From the NCBI GenBank assembly GCA_022072455.1, contig JAJVHY010000009.1:1-64000 (forward strand): a stretch of 64,000 nt of DNA. Direction: 5' to 3'. The notes beneath the pieces are model-generated. The model was not told the origin of the DNA, did not search any database, and saw only the letters and a program-made list of their open reading frames with translations. Shown piece after piece: positions 21,941-31,578 of this stretch (positions within the stretch are counted from its first letter, which is position 1; each line of letters opens with the position of its first letter). This stretch comes from Verrucomicrobiia bacterium. Lineage in GTDB: Bacteria > Verrucomicrobiota > Verrucomicrobiia > Palsa-1439. The translations under genes were made by a program, and so were the position numbers.

Positions 21941-22525
21941 TCATGGTCTCTTATCCAACGGTCTGCGACCGACCAGTCCGTAGTGGAACGGCGGCAAGTC
22001 AACGTGCGACAGGATTAACTCGAATCCCGCAGACACTAGCCAGTCTCGACATTGTTCCGGTCGCGGGCGGATGCTGAGGTCTGGTCCGCGCGGAGTGCAG
22101 GCATCATAGTTCCAGTGGATCACAGCAACTTTACCGCCCGACCGGACAACGCGAAATGCCTCCTGCAGCAGGCTGATCGGGTTCTCGGCGTGCAGGATAT
22201 TGAACAACATGGCATAGCCGACCGAATTGTCCGGCAGTCCTGTTCCCTCCGCCACAAAGTCGCGCAAGCGTGTCTGCACATTGCGTGCTCCAGTGGCTTC
22301 GGCTTTGCGTTGCGTCTCTGCGATCATCGCCGGCTCGAGGTCCAGCGCGTACACCGTGCCGGTAGTCCGTGCGGCTGCGGCGACAGTGAATGTTCCGTAG
22401 CCGCACCCGATCTCGACCACATCGGCGCGCGGGTCGTCACAGCTGAGTTTGTCGAGGATGCCGGGCGCGTCGAAAAACGTCGCCCACAACTGTTCGTCCG
22501 GCATCCCGCTGTCGCGGACTTTCAT
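21941..22525 (-). CDS. Class I SAM-dependent methyltransferase
   Basis: 194 residues of the Rossmann methyltransferase fold. Motif I VVEIGCGYGTFTVA (about 36-49), an acidic motif II residue (YALDLEPAM), the post-I segment NSVGYAMLFNILHAENP and the motif III-like GGKVAVIHWNYD are all present. The substrate cannot be read from sequence. The ATG at 22525 shares bases with the stop of the Cys-rich gene. Co-occurrence with PadR and DoxX suggests a stress or small-molecule detoxification role, an inference only. Confidence 0.85.
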   Translation of the reverse strand: MKVRDSGMPDEQLWATFFDAPGILDKLSCDDPRADVVEIGCGYGTFTVAAAARTTGTVYALDLEPAMIAETQRKAEATGARNVQTRLRDFVAEGTGLPDNSVGYAMLFNILHAENPISLLQEAFRVVRSGGKVAVIHWNYDACTPRGPDLSIRPRPEQCRDWLVSAGFELILSHVDLPPFHYGLVGRRPLDKRP

Positions 22526-22893
22526 GACGCAATCCGTGCGCCTGATTCCTCTGCGAAACGCCGGGCGTCCACCCGTTCCTGTTCCGTCAGCAGCGAATCG
22601 CGGACGCGGTTGAACAACGGGTTGACGCGCGCATCGAACCAGCGGAACAGCGCCGATTGTTCCTTGAGCGCGTTCTTGCGAAACCGCAGACAACCGTGAC
22701 AAAACGGCGAGCGCGTCGGGTAATTCCCCGGATGGATCCGGTAAACCAACGCGAACAATCGCACCCCCGTCGCCAGCACCTCCCGAAACGCGCGAAACCA
22801 CCAAGCGCGTTGGTAGCAGAGTTGTTCCAACCGGATCGTGCAGACCCGGCAGACCAAGTTGCTGGGATTACTTGTCGGTAACGACTTCGTCAT
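22522..22893 (-). CDS. Small Cys-pair protein of unknown function
   Basis: 123 residues with two CxxC pairs (LVCRVCTI near residue 15; FCHGCLRF near residue 65), which could bind zinc or an iron-sulfur cluster. A hydrophobic aromatic stretch lies between (RAWWFRAFREVLATGVRLFALVY). The C-terminal half is charged and helical (LFNRVRDSLLTEQERVDARRF). It overlaps the padR stop by 26 bases and the methyltransferase start by four, so it is a real operon member, but I do not recognise a family. Confidence 0.6.
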   Translation of the reverse strand: MTKSLPTSNPSNLVCRVCTIRLEQLCYQRAWWFRAFREVLATGVRLFALVYRIHPGNYPTRSPFCHGCLRFRKNALKEQSALFRWFDARVNPLFNRVRDSLLTEQERVDARRFAEESGARIAS

Positions 22894-23340: not shown

Positions 23341-24384
23341 TTACCCCGGCAGGCGAATCGTAAACCGGCACCCGCCCAACGGGCTAGTCGCCAGTTCGAC
23401 CGTGCCGCGATGGAGGCGGACAACATCCGCGACAATCGCCAGTCCCAACCCCGTGCCTTCCGGTAAATCACGGCCCGTCTTTTGAAACGGCCGGAACATT
23501 TCCGCCCGTTGATTTTCAGGAATACCGGGGCCGGAATCTTCGACTATCAGCGTCACCCAACCATCCTGCGGCGTGGTCAGGTTGATCGCAATCACGCCCG
23601 CCGCAGGGGTGAACCGCAGGGCGTTGTCCAATAGATTGGCTAGGGCTTCCTGCAATAAATTCGTAAGCCCGCGTATTAGCACAGGTTCGGTTGGCAGGGT
23701 GAGTCGCAACTCAATCGGTTTCGTTTCGCAGACCGGCTGCGCGTCGGCGGCCACCTCGCGCACCAAGTCGTTGAGCGTGACCGGCGCGAACTGATGGCGG
23801 AGATCATCGTGCGCCAGCCGGGCGAGAGTCAGTAGTTGGTTTACTGTGTGCGTGAGCCGGTGGACGTCTTCGAGCATGCCGCCAATCACCGCGCGGTACT
23901 CGCCGGGCGGACGGTCCTGCTGCAAACACGTCTCACCGGTCGTGCGTAACGCGGCGAGCGGATTGCGCAATTGGTGCGCGGCGTCGTAGCTGAACCGTTC
24001 CAACCGCGCCAACGCCTCGTCATAGCGGTCAAACGCGGAATTGAGCGTGCGCGCGAGCCGGCCAATCTCGTCGTCCGCGACTTCCGGTTGAATCCGTTGC
24101 TCCAGCTTGCCGGCGCAGATTTCCTCGGCGGGCACCACGATTTTCTGAAGGGGTTGCACCAGTTGCCGGGAAATCCACCACGCGCCCACCAACGCCACCG
24201 GAAACAAGACCACGATCAATCCGCCCAGCACCAGCGCCTCCTCGAACTCTTCCGCTTGCAAGCCGGGATGCTCGCGGGCTTCGTGGGCATTGAACACCAT
24301 CATGACTGTCAGCACCGACACGAAGATGATGACCGTGTGCAACGCCAGCCACTTGAAAAATTTGACGCGCAGCGAGCCTCTCAC
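23341..24384 (-). CDS. Sensor histidine kinase
   Basis: 347 residues. Two membrane spans (about 14-32 and 52-72) enclose a short periplasmic loop (HEAREHPGLQAEEFEEA). A HAMP-like linker follows, then the dimerisation helix with His137 in FSYDAAHQLRNPLAAL. The ATPase domain has N-box NLLDNALRF, VEDSGPGIP and GTGLGLAIV. The small sensor loop suggests it senses a membrane or periplasmic cue, or accessory proteins. The ATG at 24384 overlaps the regulator stop. Its likely targets include the divergent YceI/PKS operon, inferred from position only. Confidence 0.93.
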   Translation of the reverse strand: MRGSLRVKFFKWLALHTVIIFVSVLTVMMVFNAHEAREHPGLQAEEFEEALVLGGLIVVLFPVALVGAWWISRQLVQPLQKIVVPAEEICAGKLEQRIQPEVADDEIGRLARTLNSAFDRYDEALARLERFSYDAAHQLRNPLAALRTTGETCLQQDRPPGEYRAVIGGMLEDVHRLTHTVNQLLTLARLAHDDLRHQFAPVTLNDLVREVAADAQPVCETKPIELRLTLPTEPVLIRGLTNLLQEALANLLDNALRFTPAAGVIAINLTTPQDGWVTLIVEDSGPGIPENQRAEMFRPFQKTGRDLPEGTGLGLAIVADVVRLHRGTVELATSPLGGCRFTIRLPG

Positions 24385-25061
24385 CGTCGTTCCTCCAGCA
24401 CAAAGCCGACCCCGCGAACCGTGTGTAGCAGCGACCCGGCACGGCCTTTGTCTATTTTGTCGCGGAGCCGGGAAATGTGGACATCAATCACGTTGTCCAT
24501 CGAGGTGAACCGCGACCGCACCTGCCACACTTCGCGCGCCAACATTTCGCGCGACACCGTCTGACCCCGGTGTTCCAACAGGTACCGCAACAGGTCAAAC
24601 TCCCGCGGCGTCAACTCAATCGCCTCCGCGCCGCGTTGCACGGTGCGCGTTCGCAAATCCAGCGTCAGATCCGCCAGCGTCTGTTGCACTGGCTGCGCGC
24701 CGGTGCTCCGCCGCAACAACGCCTGAATTCGCGCCAGCAATTCCCCGAACGCATACGGTTTCACGAGGTAGTCATCGGCGCCCGCGTCGAGGCCGACAAT
24801 CCGTTCCTCCACCCGACCGCGCGCCGTGGTGATAAGCACCGGTACCGCGGGTTGTGTGCGGCGCAATTCGGCCAGCAACTTCAACCCATCGTCATCCGGC
24901 AACCCGAGATCGAGGAGTACCAATTGGAGGTCCGGTTGCGCCAGCAGCGACCGCGCGAGTCGCCCCGTCCCGGCGTGGTTGACCGTGAAGCCGGCCTCCC
25001 GCAGTCCCCGGGTCAGACTCCTGGCCAGCGCGGCATCGTCTTCGACGACGAGTATGCTCAT
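24381..25061 (-). CDS. OmpR/PhoB family response regulator
   Basis: 226 residues: receiver domain with acidic pair Glu7-Asp8-Asp9, phospho-acceptor Asp51 (LVLLDLGLPDDDG) and Lys in YLVKPYAFGEL. The DNA-binding winged helix has ELTPREFDLLRYLLEHRGQT, SMDNVIDVHISRLRDKID and VRGVGFVLEERR. It is the partner of the downstream kinase. The gene is transcribed away from the YceI/PKS operon, with a 109-base shared control region, so it may regulate both directions. Start ATG at 25061. Confidence 0.95.
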   Translation of the reverse strand: MSILVVEDDAALARSLTRGLREAGFTVNHAGTGRLARSLLAQPDLQLVLLDLGLPDDDGLKLLAELRRTQPAVPVLITTARGRVEERIVGLDAGADDYLVKPYAFGELLARIQALLRRSTGAQPVQQTLADLTLDLRTRTVQRGAEAIELTPREFDLLRYLLEHRGQTVSREMLAREVWQVRSRFTSMDNVIDVHISRLRDKIDKGRAGSLLHTVRGVGFVLEERR

Positions 25062-25134
25062 CGGCTGTTTTCCTACCACCCAGCGCCGGCAAACACCACC
25101 GGCAAATCCTTAACAAATCTTCAGATGGAATCAG

Positions 25135-25170: not shown

Positions 25171-25722
25171 ATGAAATTGAAAATCGTTTTCGCGCTGCTG
25201 GCGGTGTCCAGCCTCAGCCACGCCGAACAAGTGTTGCCGGCGGAAGCGGCGATTACCTTTGCCGGAAAATCCACGTTGCATGACTTTACCGGTCAGGTGA
25301 CTGCGGCCCCGTTCAACATTCAAATCTCGGAAAATCCCACCAACCACCTCCGCGAATGCGCCGCGACCGTGGCGGTCACCGTCACGAATATGTCCACCGC
25401 CAAGCCCGCGCGGGACCGCAAAATGTTCGCCATGTTCAACGCGCCGACGCACCCGCTTATCCGCGCCGTCGTCGAACACCTGCCGGTCCCGACCGGGCGA
25501 CTCCAGCGGGCCACGGTGCGATTGACCATTGCCGGGAAGGAGCAAACTGTCGCGGCGCTTGTCGAAGACTGGCAGGAAACCAATGGACAGATTACCTTTC
25601 GCCTGACTTGCGATGTCTCACTGAAAGAATTCGGACTGGAAGCCCCCTCGGTCATCGGGCTGATCCGAGTTGCCGACAAAGTCCACGTCGATTGTGCCGT
25701 CAAAACGCGCGGAGGAAGCTGA
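25171..25722 (+). CDS. YceI-like periplasmic lipid-binding protein
   Basis: 183 residues with signal peptide MKLKIVFALLAVSSLSHA. The mature part has the YceI pattern ITFAGKSTLHDFTGQVTA, a middle segment with NAPTHPLIRAVVEHL and a final strand set ending VHVDCAVKTRG. YceI proteins form a lipocalin-like barrel that binds long isoprenoid or fatty chains in the periplasm. Only 4 bases separate it from the type III PKS gene, which makes it the first gene of that operon. A role in binding or carrying the amphiphilic polyketide product is therefore a reasonable inference. The start is supported by the signal peptide and the -10 box 7 bases upstream. Confidence 0.75.
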   Translation: MKLKIVFALLAVSSLSHAEQVLPAEAAITFAGKSTLHDFTGQVTAAPFNIQISENPTNHLRECAATVAVTVTNMSTAKPARDRKMFAMFNAPTHPLIRAVVEHLPVPTGRLQRATVRLTIAGKEQTVAALVEDWQETNGQITFRLTCDVSLKEFGLEAPSVIGLIRVADKVHVDCAVKTRGGS

Positions 25723-25726
25723 ACCC

Positions 25727-26845
25727 ATGAGCGCCTACATCCACCACATCGAAACCCTCGTCCCCGAAACATTCTGCCGGCAGGATTACATCCGCGACCG
25801 GATGATGGAGTGGTCCGGCAATCCCCGCACCGCCCGGTACATCCGCGCCGTGTACGACCGGTCGGGAATCGCGAAACGCCACAGCGTGTTGCCGGATTTT
25901 CAACGCGGTGTGCCGACAGAGCTTTTTCACGACGACGCGCTCGAACCATCCACCGCCGAGCGGAACCGCTGTTACATCCGGTACGCGCGGGAGTTGTCGG
26001 TTGAAATCGCCCGCCGCGCTTTGAGTGGATTTTCTCCGGCCGATGTGACGCATGTCGTCACCGCCTCCTGTACCGGCTTCTACAATCCCGGTATGGACTA
26101 CGACATCGTCGTCGGTCTTGGTCTGCCGCCGACGGTCGAACGCTACAATCTCGGTTTCATGGGCTGTTACGCGGCGATGCCGGCGTTGCGGATGGCGGAG
26201 CAGTTTTGCCGGGCCAACCCGCGCGCGGTCGTCCTCGTCGTCTGCCTCGAACTCTGTACGCTGCATTTTCAACTGCGCGACAATCCCGACAACATCCTCG
26301 CGAACGCGCTGTTCGCCGACGGCGTGGCGGCGGCGGTTGTCAGCGCCCGAGCACCGGCCGGTCACGCGCCGGTGTTGCGGCTTGGTGAATTTCTCCCGGC
26401 ACTGGCCACGGAAGGCGGCGGCGACATGGCATGGGAAGTCGGCAATACCGGCTTCAACATCGTCCTGTCCAGCTACGTCCCCGACATCATCGCCGGCAGC
26501 ATCGGGCCGATTGTGGACAACATCCTCGCCCGGCGTGGCCGGCAACGCGGGGAGATTGACCGGTGGGCGATTCATCCCGGCGGCAAGTCCATCCTCGACA
26601 AACTTGAACGCTGCCTGCTGCTCGAACCGAGTCAACTGCAACAGTCCCGCGACGTGCTCCGCGATTTCGGCAACATGAGCAGCGCGACGATTCTGTTCGT
26701 GTTGCGGCGGATACTCGACACGCTGACGCCCGGTCATGCCGAACAGATTTGCGCGATGGCGTTTGGGCCGGGGTTGACGATTGAGACGGCGTTGTTGGAA
26801 GCCGTCCCGGCGGCGAAGCCGGAACCAGTCCTCGTCGAGGTCTAG
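25727..26845 (+). CDS. Type III polyketide synthase (chalcone/stilbene synthase-like)
   Basis: 372 residues with the full catalytic triad: Cys147 in LGFMGCYAAMPALR, His283 in WAIHPGGKSILD and Asn316 in GNMSSATILFVL. The arrangement FMGCYAA and the neighbouring genes match bacterial alkylresorcinol/alkylpyrone synthases (SrsA, BpsA), which extend long fatty acyl starters with malonyl units. A GGAGG sequence lies 16-12 bases before the ATG at 25727. The product is likely a lipid-like phenol or pyrone incorporated in, or associated with, membranes. Downstream methyltransferase and hydroxylase functions would convert it to methoxylated or quinone forms. Confidence 0.93.
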   Translation: MSAYIHHIETLVPETFCRQDYIRDRMMEWSGNPRTARYIRAVYDRSGIAKRHSVLPDFQRGVPTELFHDDALEPSTAERNRCYIRYARELSVEIARRALSGFSPADVTHVVTASCTGFYNPGMDYDIVVGLGLPPTVERYNLGFMGCYAAMPALRMAEQFCRANPRAVVLVVCLELCTLHFQLRDNPDNILANALFADGVAAAVVSARAPAGHAPVLRLGEFLPALATEGGGDMAWEVGNTGFNIVLSSYVPDIIAGSIGPIVDNILARRGRQRGEIDRWAIHPGGKSILDKLERCLLLEPSQLQQSRDVLRDFGNMSSATILFVLRRILDTLTPGHAEQICAMAFGPGLTIETALLEAVPAAKPEPVLVEV

Positions 26846-26846
26846 C

Positions 26847-28721
26847 GTGTACACTCGCGCGCAACGTGCCGTCGCGCTCGCGTACGGGATTGTCTGTCAC
26901 GGACTCTACGTCGTGGCGGTTGGCTTGATGGGCTACAGTTTCTACAACGGGCTCACACCCGGCCACGGTCATCTGCCGGGGGTGTGGGGTGTGGCCGGCA
27001 ATACGATGTTGCTTCTGCAATTTCCCATCCTCCACTCGTGGTTGCTGACGAACCGGGGGCGCGCGCTCGTGGCGCGGTTGGCGCCGCTCAAACTGGGACG
27101 TGATTTGGCAACGACCACGTTCGCGATCATCGCGGCGCTGCAACTGATTGCAGTGTTCTTTTGGTGGACGCCCTCCGGTCACGTGTGGTGGAAGGTCGGC
27201 CAGTGGATGGTGATCCCCGCCACAGGCGCGTGGCTGTTCTTGGTGAAATCCATTTTTGACTCAGACATGCGCCTGCAGACCGGCTTCCTCGGTTGGGGAA
27301 GTGTGGTGCGCAATCGCCGGCCCGACTTCAAACCGTTCTCCACCCGTGGGGTCTACCGGTACACGCGCCAGCCGATCTATTTGTCGTTCGCGTTGATCCT
27401 GTGGACGAGCGCGGTGTGGACGCCGGACCAATTGACATTGGCAATTTTGTGGACAGGATATTGCGTCGTGGGCGCGGCATTGAAAGAACGAAGATTTTTG
27501 GCGTGGTTCGGCGAGGCGTACCGGAACTACCAGCAGCGCGTGCCGTTTTTCCTCCCGGGCCGGCCACGCGCGGCGGCTGCGCCGGCAACTGACTGTGATG
27601 TCTTGATCGTCGGCGCGGGGCCGGTCGGATTGTTGCTGGCGAATCTATTGGGCAAGGCCGGCGTGCGCACAATCGTCGTCGAGCGTCGCACCGCGCCACC
27701 CAGCCAATCCATGGCCATCGGCATCACGCCGCCGTCGTTGGAGATTCTGGAGAAACTCGGGCTGGCGGATGAGTTCGTGCAACGCGGCGTCCGCATCCAC
27801 ACCGCGCACGTCACCGAGAATGGCCGGTATCTCGGGCATGTGGATTTTTCGCGGATTCAGGCGGCGCATCAGTTCATCCTCTCGCTCCCGCAGGTGGAGA
27901 CGGTGGGATTACTCTGGAACAACCTCCGCCGGTACGACTGCGTGCAACTGTGGCCGGCCACGGAATGCACCGCGTTGGAACAACACGCGACGCACGTTGA
28001 AGTCCAGTTGAATGACCGGCGTATTTCCAGCCGGTATGTCGTGGGTTGTGACGGTCATCGGAGTCGCATCCGCGAACTGGCCGGGATTCCAGTGCAGGTG
28101 AAGACGTACCGGCCCCGGTTTTTGATGGCTGATTTTGCGGATGAATCCGGGTTGGGTGCCGAGGCGCATTTGTTTTTCACGGCGCGCGGGTCGGTGGAGT
28201 CTTTTCCTCTGCCGGGGGGCCGGCGGCGGTGGATTGCGATGATCACCGACCGGGTTGTGGCGGACGCGGACCGGTATTTGGTCGAGCAAGTGCGCCGGTT
28301 GACGGGATATGATTTACGGGGCGCGGCGCAATACTCGCAGAGCGCGTTTCAACCGCAACGGTTGTTGGCGCGGCGGTTTTACCGGGGGCGCGTGGTGTTG
28401 TGTGGCGACGCGGCGCATGTGATGAGCCCGATCGGCGGCCAGGGGATGAACACCGGGTTTGCGGACGCGGAGTTGCTCGCGAACGTGTTGACGGGCTCGG
28501 CGGATTTCCGGTTGTACGAGACGGCGCGCCGGCGGGCGTTCTTGGTGGCGGCCGGGCGGGCGGCGCGCGGGATGTGGTTGGGGACGCGGCGCGGCGCGGT
28601 GTTGTCTGAATTACGCGCGCGGTTCATTCGCGATTATCTCTTCCGCGGGGAAGTGCGCGACCGGGTGGCGGCCTATTTTGCGATGTTGACGATTCCACTG
28701 AATCCGGTGGCGCGCCGATGA
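26847..28721 (+). CDS. Fusion: ICMT-type membrane methyltransferase + FAD-dependent aromatic hydroxylase
   Basis: 624 residues from a GTG start two bases after the PKS stop. Residues 1-240 form a multi-span membrane domain with the isoprenylcysteine-methyltransferase-type SAM motif GVYRYTRQPIYLSF (about 169-182) and ALKERRFLAWFGEAYRNY. After a short Ala/Pro linker, residues 251-624 form a PHBH-type flavin monooxygenase with VGAGPVG (255-261), VGCDGHRSR (about 399-407) and CGDAAHVMSPIGGQGMN (519-535). In Streptomyces srsABC, SrsB (methyltransferase) and SrsC (hydroxylase) are separate; here both are on one chain in the same order. No in-frame ATG precedes the flavin motif, which supports a real fusion. 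Likely role: O-methylation and ring hydroxylation of the PKS product at the membrane. Confidence 0.85.
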   Translation: MYTRAQRAVALAYGIVCHGLYVVAVGLMGYSFYNGLTPGHGHLPGVWGVAGNTMLLLQFPILHSWLLTNRGRALVARLAPLKLGRDLATTTFAIIAALQLIAVFFWWTPSGHVWWKVGQWMVIPATGAWLFLVKSIFDSDMRLQTGFLGWGSVVRNRRPDFKPFSTRGVYRYTRQPIYLSFALILWTSAVWTPDQLTLAILWTGYCVVGAALKERRFLAWFGEAYRNYQQRVPFFLPGRPRAAAAPATDCDVLIVGAGPVGLLLANLLGKAGVRTIVVERRTAPPSQSMAIGITPPSLEILEKLGLADEFVQRGVRIHTAHVTENGRYLGHVDFSRIQAAHQFILSLPQVETVGLLWNNLRRYDCVQLWPATECTALEQHATHVEVQLNDRRISSRYVVGCDGHRSRIRELAGIPVQVKTYRPRFLMADFADESGLGAEAHLFFTARGSVESFPLPGGRRRWIAMITDRVVADADRYLVEQVRRLTGYDLRGAAQYSQSAFQPQRLLARRFYRGRVVLCGDAAHVMSPIGGQGMNTGFADAELLANVLTGSADFRLYETARRRAFLVAAGRAARGMWLGTRRGAVLSELRARFIRDYLFRGEVRDRVAAYFAMLTIPLNPVARR

Positions 28722-29419
28722 CGGTCTCATTTGAACGCCGCGCGGAACTGCCGGAGTTGATGGATTTGCCGGACTGCGATGAGTCGCGGTTGTTGCGAAC
28801 GGTCCAGCAATTCCGCTGGATCAATGGCCTCGCCGCGCGGTATCGCACGAGCCTCCGCCGGTATGTGCTCGACGACATGCGCCCGGGCCGGGCGTACCGG
28901 TTGGTGGATGTGGGGGCGGGCGGCTGCGAGATAGCGGTGTGGTTGTTGCGCGCGGCGGCGCGGCGCGGATTGCGATTGACGGTGACGGCGATTGACAGCG
29001 ATCCCCGCATCGTTCGATTCGCGCGAAGCCGGTATGGCACGGTGGCGGGATTGGAGATTCGGGAGATGAATGCGTTCGACCTCCCAGAGTTGGGGCGACC
29101 GGATTATTTGTTCTCCAATCACGTGTTGCACCACTTGCCGGATGCGAAGGTGGTGGAGCTGCTGCAGTTGGCCGGCAAGGTGACGCGGCGCGCGGCGGTG
29201 TTCAGCGATTTGGAGCGCAGCCCACTCTCGTATTGGGGATATTCTGGGTTGGCGACGGTGTTCTTGCACCGGAGTTTTGCCCGGTATGACGGGAGGTTGT
29301 CGGTGCGAAAAGGTTTTCGGGCCGGTGAATTGCGAGCCTTCCTCCAGCGGGCCGGCCACCAAGGACACGTGGAGAAATTATTTCCCGGCCGGTTGGTGAT
29401 GGTGGTGCAGCCCAACTAA
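28718..29419 (+). CDS. Class I SAM methyltransferase of the PKS operon
   Basis: 233 residues. SAM motif I is LVDVGAGGCEIAVWLL (from residue 62), with acidic motif II ATAIDSDP-like VTAIDSDPRIV and a post-I block DYLFSNHVLHHLPDAKV. A methyltransferase of this look commonly ends type III PKS/FAD oxidoreductase gene sets. The ATG at 28718 overlaps the stop of the fusion gene. It could methylate carbon or oxygen on the polyketide ring, giving this short operon two methylation steps. The 3' end shares four bases with the convergent oxidase gene. Confidence 0.87.
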   Translation: MTVSFERRAELPELMDLPDCDESRLLRTVQQFRWINGLAARYRTSLRRYVLDDMRPGRAYRLVDVGAGGCEIAVWLLRAAARRGLRLTVTAIDSDPRIVRFARSRYGTVAGLEIREMNAFDLPELGRPDYLFSNHVLHHLPDAKVVELLQLAGKVTRRAAVFSDLERSPLSYWGYSGLATVFLHRSFARYDGRLSVRKGFRAGELRAFLQRAGHQGHVEKLFPGRLVMVVQPN

Positions 29420-30792: not shown

Positions 30793-31040
30793 GGGAGCAG
30801 TGTAACATAGCCGGGATGGAGTGAGGGGCGACGAAAGAACATTTTGTTGGCTACAACTTTCACCCAATGACGCAAAGCGGGGAATTGCAGGGCACGAATC
30901 CCCGTCGTTTGGGGTTCGCGCCGTCGAGGAAGACATGCCATCACTCGCGGCGGACAGCCTAAACGACAGGCATGCCCACCCTACAAATCCGGCGGCAGTA
31001 TCAAACGCAGCTCGAATTCTTGAGTGTCAGGACGTTCAAG
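30793..31040. other. Intergenic stretch without a supportable gene
   Basis: An open frame crosses it from 30821 into the antitoxin gene, but the encoded sequence is unlike any family and has no start signals. The segment near 30940-30990 contains short repeated words (GCATGCC, CCCACCCTAC) often seen in intergenic repeats. Confidence 0.4.
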
Positions 31041-31069
31041 TTGGCAAATCTGGATGGCCACGATATAGT
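31041..31069 (+). promoter_or_regulatory. Leaderless promoter of the toxin-antitoxin pair
   Basis: TTGGCA (31041-31046), 17-base spacer, TATAGT (31064-31069), then 6 bases to the ATG at 31076; no Shine-Dalgarno sequence. Confidence 0.55.
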
Positions 31070-31075
31070 TTGGCC

Positions 31076-31291
31076 ATGACAACGCTGGCGTTGAAAGAAA
31101 TGAGTCTGGCTGAGAAGCTCGCCGCGATGGAAGCCTTGTGGGAGGACTTATCGCGCACACCCGAAGCCGTCGAATCTCCCGCTTGGCACAAGGAAGTGCT
31201 TGAGCAGCGGCAGAACCGGGTCGCCGAAGGCAAGGCCGGATATACCTCGTGGGAATCGGCCAAGGCTGACATTCGCCGCGAAGTTTCGTGA
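31076..31291 (+). CDS. Antitoxin, addiction-module (Unstab_antitox) family
   Basis: 71 residues matching the short helical antitoxins of PF09720: LSLAEKL-like EMSLAEKLAAMEALWEDL at the N-terminus, SPAWHKEVLEQRQNRVAEG in the middle and a final SWESAKADIRREV. These bind and block RelE/ParE-type toxins. The ATG at 31076 follows a -10 box by six bases. Its stop overlaps the toxin start (GTGA), the usual TA arrangement. Confidence 0.85.
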   Translation: MTTLALKEMSLAEKLAAMEALWEDLSRTPEAVESPAWHKEVLEQRQNRVAEGKAGYTSWESAKADIRREVS

Positions 31292-31578
31292 GAATCGAGA
31301 TTCACGACGACGCCCGGCATGATCTGATTGCCGGCTTCCACTTCTACGAGAAACAAGAAGCCGGGCTTGGCACCTACTTCCTCGACTACCTGTTCTCCGA
31401 TATTGATTCGCTGCAACTGTATGCTGGGATTCACGCAATCGTGTTCAACCAGCACCGCTGCCTGTCCAAGCGTTTTCCATTTGCCGTCTACTACACCGTG
31501 ATTGGCGACACTGTTCACATCAACGCTGTGCTGGATTGCCGACGGAATCCGACTTGGATCAAACAGCGGCTGACGTAA
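31288..31578 (+). CDS. RelE/ParE family toxin
   Basis: 96 residues with the ParE/RelE barrel pattern: EIHDDARHDLIAGFHFYEKQ, a central helix (GLGTYFLDYLFSDIDSLQL) and the C-terminal strand set FPFAVYYTVIGDTVHINAVLDCRRNP. Members inhibit gyrase or cut ribosome-bound mRNA; sequence does not decide which. It starts with GTG inside the antitoxin stop. A hairpin follows 10 bases after the stop. Stand-alone chromosomal TA pairs like this are frequent in accessory islands, matching the altered composition further right. Confidence 0.88.
   Translation: MRIEIHDDARHDLIAGFHFYEKQEAGLGTYFLDYLFSDIDSLQLYAGIHAIVFNQHRCLSKRFPFAVYYTVIGDTVHINAVLDCRRNPTWIKQRLT

Follow-up and report, generated by a model that had tools for sequence, protein, structure and literature searches.

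The srsABC operon of Streptomyces griseus encodes a type III polyketide synthase (PKS), SrsA, an ICMT-type methyltransferase, SrsB, and a monooxygenase, SrsC, and the latter two, as separate proteins, methylate and hydroxylate the alkylresorcinol that SrsA synthesizes, on the way to alkylbenzoquinones (PMC6669644). The pkqABC operons of M. smegmatis and Streptomyces sp. MNU77, which encode a PKS, a methyltransferase and an oxidoreductase, lead to alkylbenzoquinones, polyketide quinones that function in respiration (PMC9927152). hidABC yields the hierridins, alkylresorcinols that are hydroxylated and O-methylated (hierridin B, a hydroxy alkylresorcinol, has two O-methyl groups); a planctomycetal methyltransferase-oxidoreductase-PKS operon gives C-methylated alkylresorcinols, and the alkylresorcinol tailored by the G. 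maris genes is C-methylated and neither hydroxylated nor a quinone (PMC10896814).

The window analyzed here (the whole 64-kb stretch of DNA) co-encodes a type III PKS, an ICMT-type methyltransferase and a group A flavin monooxygenase (FMO), the gene content of srsABC and pkqABC, with the last two joined in one protein (Table 1). The original prediction, made from the letters alone, had described a single 624-codon frame carrying both enzymes directly after a type III PKS, and had contrasted it with the separate proteins of srsABC. This description held: the frame is open, with Pfam matches to PEMT (residues 126-219) and FAD_binding_3 (residues 249-568), it begins 1 nt after the PKS, and SrsB and SrsC are encoded by separate genes (PMC6669644). 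The conserved neighborhood of YceI, two-component system, UbiE and class I methyltransferase was absent from that prediction.

Table 1. Features of the fusion locus in the window.
Feature	Coordinates	Strand	Details
Sensor histidine kinase	23341..24384	-	HAMP, HisKA, HATPase_c; conserved together with the regulator
OmpR-family response regulator, divergent	24381..25079	-	Response_reg and Trans_reg_C
Operator-like 16-bp direct repeat	25109..25124	+	CTTAACAAATCTTCAG; between response regulator and YceI-PKS operon
YceI-family protein	25171..25722	+	YceI E 1.1e-10; predicted exported lipid/isoprenoid-binding protein
Type III polyketide synthase	25727..26845	+	Chal_sti_synt_N/C E 1.5e-22 / 5.7e-27
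ICMT::FMO fusion gene	26847-28721	+	Single open frame, GTG start, TGA stop (28719-28721), 624 residues
Membrane methyltransferase, ICMT/PEMT/MddA superfamily	26847..27554	+	Residues 1-236, ~6 predicted membrane helices
Linker	27555..27590	+	Residues 237-248; variable length in 16 aligned fused proteins, low confidence
Group A flavin monooxygenase (PHBH/UbiH-type)	27591..28718	+	Residues 249-624, domain ~249-617, complete
Class I SAM methyltransferase MT1, PRK06202-like	28718..29419	+	Methyltransf_25 E 3.6e-8; NF004851 E 1.3e-52

By domain type, the locus has the same three activities in one operon as srsABC and would fit the same chemistry from phenolic lipid to alkylquinone (PMC6669644, PMC10896814). 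Besides the separation of SrsB and SrsC, the two differ in that YceI, the two-component system, UbiE and MT1 have not been described for srsABC in the literature compared. pkqABC has a comparable operon of PKS, methyltransferase and oxidoreductase, but its genes are separate and actinobacterial, and the window genome also has futalosine-type menaquinone genes. The hidABC and planctomycetal operons share with the window a PKS, an FMO-type oxidoreductase and a class I methyltransferase. The Paludisphaera operon is similar in its methyltransferase, which the MT1 profile matches with E 1.7e-34, and in its PKS (41% identity), but it has no ICMT domain, a distant FMO (62 bits) and the gene order MT-FMO-PKS. 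Plasmids searched with the methyltransferase domain had no srs-like operon, and plasmid searches recovered PKS-MT-FMO operons without an ICMT partner in Deinococcus, Methylobacterium and Paludisphaera. In the megaplasmids of Deinococcus sp. QL22 and D. radiodurans (L130, L131), a PKS, a class I methyltransferase and an FMO form an operon whose PKS is 47% and whose FMO is 36-41% identical to those of the window. Both the activities and this kind of operon are already known, and what is new is mainly the fused architecture. No report of the ICMT::FMO fusion, its conservation across the clade or its regulator-YceI-UbiE context was found in the open-access papers searched, although this is no proof of absence.

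The fused gene and its distribution

The GTG start of the fusion has a GAGG stretch upstream, and the alignment of fused homologues begins at this same codon. At its 3' end the gene is joined to MT1 by an ATGA overlap. The original prediction had stated that the frame has no ATG ahead of the flavin motif. This was correct from codon 142 to the motif, where the window frame has none, and incorrect further upstream, where codons 28, 54, 121 and 141, each within the methyltransferase domain, are ATGs.

When 388 genomes of the phylum were searched, nine further ones had the uninterrupted two-domain match; among 84,980 species genomes, twelve loci had it, some of them in genomes already counted. 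After duplicates were removed, 16 distinct fused loci remained (the window, L021, L026, L027 and L050-L061), and the idea that the fusion is unique to the window genome was rejected. Overall, the fusion is present in at least 16 distinct genomes of Verrucomicrobiota and Kiritimatiellota, with 46-53% identity to the window protein and both catalytic cores conserved; scaffolds of Pontiellaceae strains B1224 and B12219 are among the carriers. The original prediction had called for this search, and had named as its refutation a stop at the linker in close relatives. Split genes do occur, in four loci, yet 16 genomes carry the frame uninterrupted, and because of this sequencing error is rejected: the fusion is genuine. 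The broader possibility of an artefact, in which a stop or frameshift was missed or internal initiation yields two proteins from one frame, is highly improbable and largely refuted. Internal initiation could make use of a GTG at codon 232, the sole start-like codon just ahead of the linker, and one fused relative (L026) has a methionine in its linker. Against it are the open frame in sixteen distinct genomes, the missing ATG from codon 142 to the flavin motif, and the lack of an obvious ribosome-binding (Shine-Dalgarno) sequence at GTG 232.

In the four split loci the ICMT and the FMO are separate genes. In L069 the ICMT ends ...KPRCSK-TGA and the FMO starts with the ATG of the same ATGA, exactly at the position of the linker in the fused proteins, an arrangement that we read as the likely state before fusion. 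L102, L110 and L126 keep the operon context, with a separate ICMT gene at a greater distance upstream. The distribution of the fusion is patchy, as relatives of the window genome from the same genus and the same family are without the protein. Among 294 sampled genomes of Planctomycetes, none had a match that spanned both halves. In a tree of the ICMT domain with planctomycetal standalone homologues as the outgroup, the fused sequences lie to the same side of a branch supported at 79/88, which is compatible with one origin of the fusion. The FMO tree, however, scatters the fused sequences: the fused label has to change 7 times across it, so the history of the fusion does not reduce to a simple single event. 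We therefore set aside a single clean origin; the scatter suggests that the methyltransferase domain was later lost, that domains were swapped or that fusion occurred more than once, and the trees do not separate these.

The methyltransferase and hydroxylase halves

The N-terminal half has the PEMT/ICMT profile and the SAM-site motif RxPxY ... E ... G--Y--Y of the ICMT/PEMT/MddA superfamily, and its catalytic C-terminal motif reads G-YRYTRQPIY ... KERRF---G--Y--Y---VP---P. Within the domain, R174, P176, Y178, K213, E214, R216, G222, Y228, P233 and P237 are invariant in 18 relatives. The Pfam PEMT match is marginal, at 24.3 bits with the whole protein and 26.2 bits with the N-terminal half alone against a cut-off of 25 bits. 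NCBIfam MddA (methanethiol S-methyltransferase, NF045656) matches the window domain over its full length (E 7e-21), although its 74.6 bits are far below the equivalog cut-off of 270 bits. The same model covers the full domain in each of the 18 relatives, with a best E of 4.3e-31. The match to the ICMT equivalog family spans only 72 residues. The nearest curated family is MddA, rather than ICMT or SrsB, and from the full-length but sub-cut-off MddA match together with the short ICMT match, the N-terminal half is a separate clade of the superfamily. The SrsB-like label of the original prediction, which would imply decarboxylative O-methylation of alkylresorcylic acid if taken as orthology to SrsB, is tentative. 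The solved ICMT 4a2n was matched at the catalytic end in a sequence-profile comparison (E 0.021). In Foldseek searches with the methyltransferase half, ICMT structures topped the list, so that the correct family ranked first, but the scores (E 0.014, TM 0.22) are too poor a basis for an assignment.

The comparison with MddA bears on what the domain methylates. The acceptor may be something other than a phenol, in which case the domain would methylate small thiols as MddA does, or would serve the hydroxylase only as a membrane anchor. We think this unlikely. It has in its favor the contrast between the full-domain MddA matches in all 18 relatives and the 72 residues covered by the ICMT family, and also the many FMO loci that have no ICMT. 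A thiol role, however, sits poorly with a score so far under the equivalog cut-off in a domain that is fused to an FMO in a polyketide operon, and the catalytic residues invariant in 18 sequences argue against a mere anchor. Standalone homologues of the methyltransferase adjoin type III PKS genes outside the Verrucomicrobiota (L145, L147 and L148; three genomes sampled from the phylum of G423, a Planctomycetes-labelled locus), and fit a polyketide substrate. We favor such a substrate because of these homologues, the FMO partner and the operon context.

The C-terminal half has FAD_binding_3 above the cut-off (E 1.5e-56), with the GxGxxG, DG and GD fingerprints and the fold of solved group A members. 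Its flavin motifs, GAGPVG (GxGPxG), CDG and CGDAAH, are invariant across the 16 fused sequences. The fold is nearest to the p-nitrophenol monooxygenase PnpA, UbiH, PHBH and polyketide hydroxylases: in Foldseek, PnpA (6ain) was matched with E 1.5e-23 and a TM-score of the target of 0.84, and MtmOIV, OxyS, UbiH and PHBH were further matches. It differs from PnpA, UbiH and PHBH in its predicted tether to the membrane through the fusion.

The AlphaFold2 model of the whole fusion had a mean pLDDT of 85 and a pTM of 0.61, so that the placement of the two domains relative to each other is not fixed by the model; the methyltransferase half alone had a pLDDT of 91. The linker is predicted to be short and disordered, with pLDDT < 50 at residues 237-244. 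Of the lysines and arginines in the predicted loops, 19 are inside and 1 is outside, a positive-inside pattern, and because of this the two ends of the protein, and with them the FMO domain, are likely in the cytosol. Such a topology fits a cytosolic hydroxylase held at the membrane, a tether that the original prediction had proposed.

Operon context and a candidate operator

Using profiles built here, the consensus locus consists of a divergent histidine kinase and OmpR regulator, followed by YceI-PKS-(small protein)-(MMPL transporter)-ICMT::FMO-(UbiE)-MT1. Of these, the two-component system, YceI, PKS, fusion and MT1 are present in the window, where no UbiE, small protein or MMPL gene is adjacent. 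YceI directly precedes the PKS in every fused locus for which the upstream sequence was covered, and in the window the PKS starts 5 nt after the YceI stop. Read from the ATG at 25171, the YceI protein begins like a signal peptide (MKLKIVFALLAVSSLSHA). The catalytic triad typical of type III enzymes is complete in the PKS: the Cys lies in FMGC, the His in AIHPGG and the Asn in FGNMS. Taken together, the gene content and alignments describe a conserved fusion with both catalytic cores intact, in a tight operon beside a divergent two-component system. Gene content varies more widely elsewhere: Spirochaetes have FMO, UbiE, PKS and MT1 in a different order, and many Prosthecobacter genomes have YceI-PKS-FMO without an ICMT.

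The response regulator is kept in its divergent position in 11 further loci. Between it and YceI lies the operator-like direct repeat, of the type CTTAM-N5-YTTMAG, which is found in 11 of 12 regulator-YceI intergenic regions (the window, L050-L054, L067, L069, L102, L110 and L126), while shuffled regions had a mean of 0.07 loci. The 64-kb window has a single match to a closely similar pattern, with 0.16 expected. Because the pattern was derived from the same sequences, these figures describe conservation and are no independent test. The repeat is probably an operator that the response regulator would bind.

Several minor observations were made on these loci. A further class I methyltransferase and a PadR regulator gene are near the two-component system in the window (21941-22804, minus strand); a related methyltransferase comes after the FMO in many Prosthecobacter loci, and the window methyltransferase may belong to the pathway. 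In more than 20 Prosthecobacter loci (L068, L070, L074 and others), frames that by eye only are acyl-carrier-like and ketosynthase-like come after YceI-PKS-FMO, which suggests a dedicated supply of acyl starters or a neighboring lipid pathway.

Proposed pathway and product

Recurrent fusion of enzymes in varied pairs is a classical sign that they are partners in one pathway. A PKS::FMO fusion occurs in one genome as an 841-residue frame (L030:226-2748), FMO::MT1 fusions occur in two (L112:5821-7779, L120:3157-5160) and FMO::UbiE fusions in three (L063:284-2338, L072:5917-8028, L047). Because relatives fuse them in these other combinations, PKS, FMO, UbiE, MT1 and ICMT probably act on one substrate, and the case for a shared pathway would rest on more than the window gene alone.

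We consider it fairly likely that the fusion is a tailoring enzyme of a phenolic-lipid pathway, bifunctional and tethered to the membrane, which methylates and hydroxylates an alkylresorcinol-type lipid, by analogy with the separate enzymes of srsABC, pkqABC and hidABC. In such a pathway the PKS would take a fatty acyl unit as starter and extend it to an alkylresorcinol (or alkylresorcylic acid). Methylation of this lipid, most likely at a phenolic oxygen, would fall to the N-terminal domain, using SAM at the cytosolic face of the membrane, and the FAD domain, in the cytosol beside the bilayer, would use NAD(P)H and O2 to hydroxylate the ring. The expected product is a methoxylated alkylhydroquinone or benzoquinone, to which MT1, and UbiE where present, could add further methyl groups. 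On the outer face, YceI may bind or carry the lipid. The conserved direct repeat would be the site through which the two-component system turns on the operon. The fusion may hold two steps on one poorly soluble intermediate at a single membrane site, and so allow channelling. Several points count against this explanation, namely the C-methylated, non-hydroxylated product in G. maris, the best match to MddA, the marginal PEMT match, the weak ICMT result in Foldseek and the scatter of fused sequences in the FMO tree. It is also weakened because, among solved structures, the PKS is closest to PKS18 (1ted, E 5e-52), known as an alkylpyrone synthase, so that resorcinol formation is not established.

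The same enzyme logic could serve another scaffold or fate. The PKS may make alkylpyrones or another ring, or the product may be a hierridin-like phenol, both O- and C-methylated, that is not converted to a quinone at any stage and serves as a membrane lipid, antibiotic or signal. We regard this as rather unlikely. Besides PKS18, the best NCBIfam match of the PKS, DpgA, is well below its cut-off, and both the C-methyl alkylresorcinol formed without a quinone by the G. maris operon and the structure of hierridin B provide precedents for such a fate; the PnpA/UbiH-type ring hydroxylase and UbiE in the same operons, on the other hand, fit quinol chemistry.

If the alkylresorcinol-type lipid does become a quinone, it would be additional to menaquinone, as the window genome has futalosine-type menaquinone genes. 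There are two genes of the MqnA/D family plus four of the UbiA family, and the cluster as the sole source of quinone is unsupported. More speculatively, and with considerable doubt, Verrucomicrobiota and Kiritimatiellota might have a two-component-controlled type III PKS pathway to an alternative membrane quinone, with its own UbiE- and UbiH-like steps, a YceI carrier and the fusion performing methylation and hydroxylation, and this quinone could serve respiration or redox stress beside menaquinone. The locus raises the question of whether a polyketide quinone is a second electron carrier in these bacteria.

The architecture would identify the two enzymes that work on a common lipid intermediate, and it offers a single-gene handle on whether alkylresorcinol tailoring occurs at the membrane. 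The locus also extends phenolic-lipid genes of the srs, pkq and hid type to phyla with few studied natural products, and adds to these gene sets a regulator with a predicted operator.

Two further observations concern related or neighboring genes. In two related loci of Desulfuromonadales/Deltaproteobacteria the FMO frame is broken near residue 55, by an in-frame TAA in L066:4947-6185 and by a deletion with a change of frame in L111:5316-6516; these may be pseudogenes or errors. Downstream in the window (30821-31578, plus strand) is a putative addiction module, in which a gene of the Unstab_antitox family overlaps a small gene that is, by eye, RelE-like.
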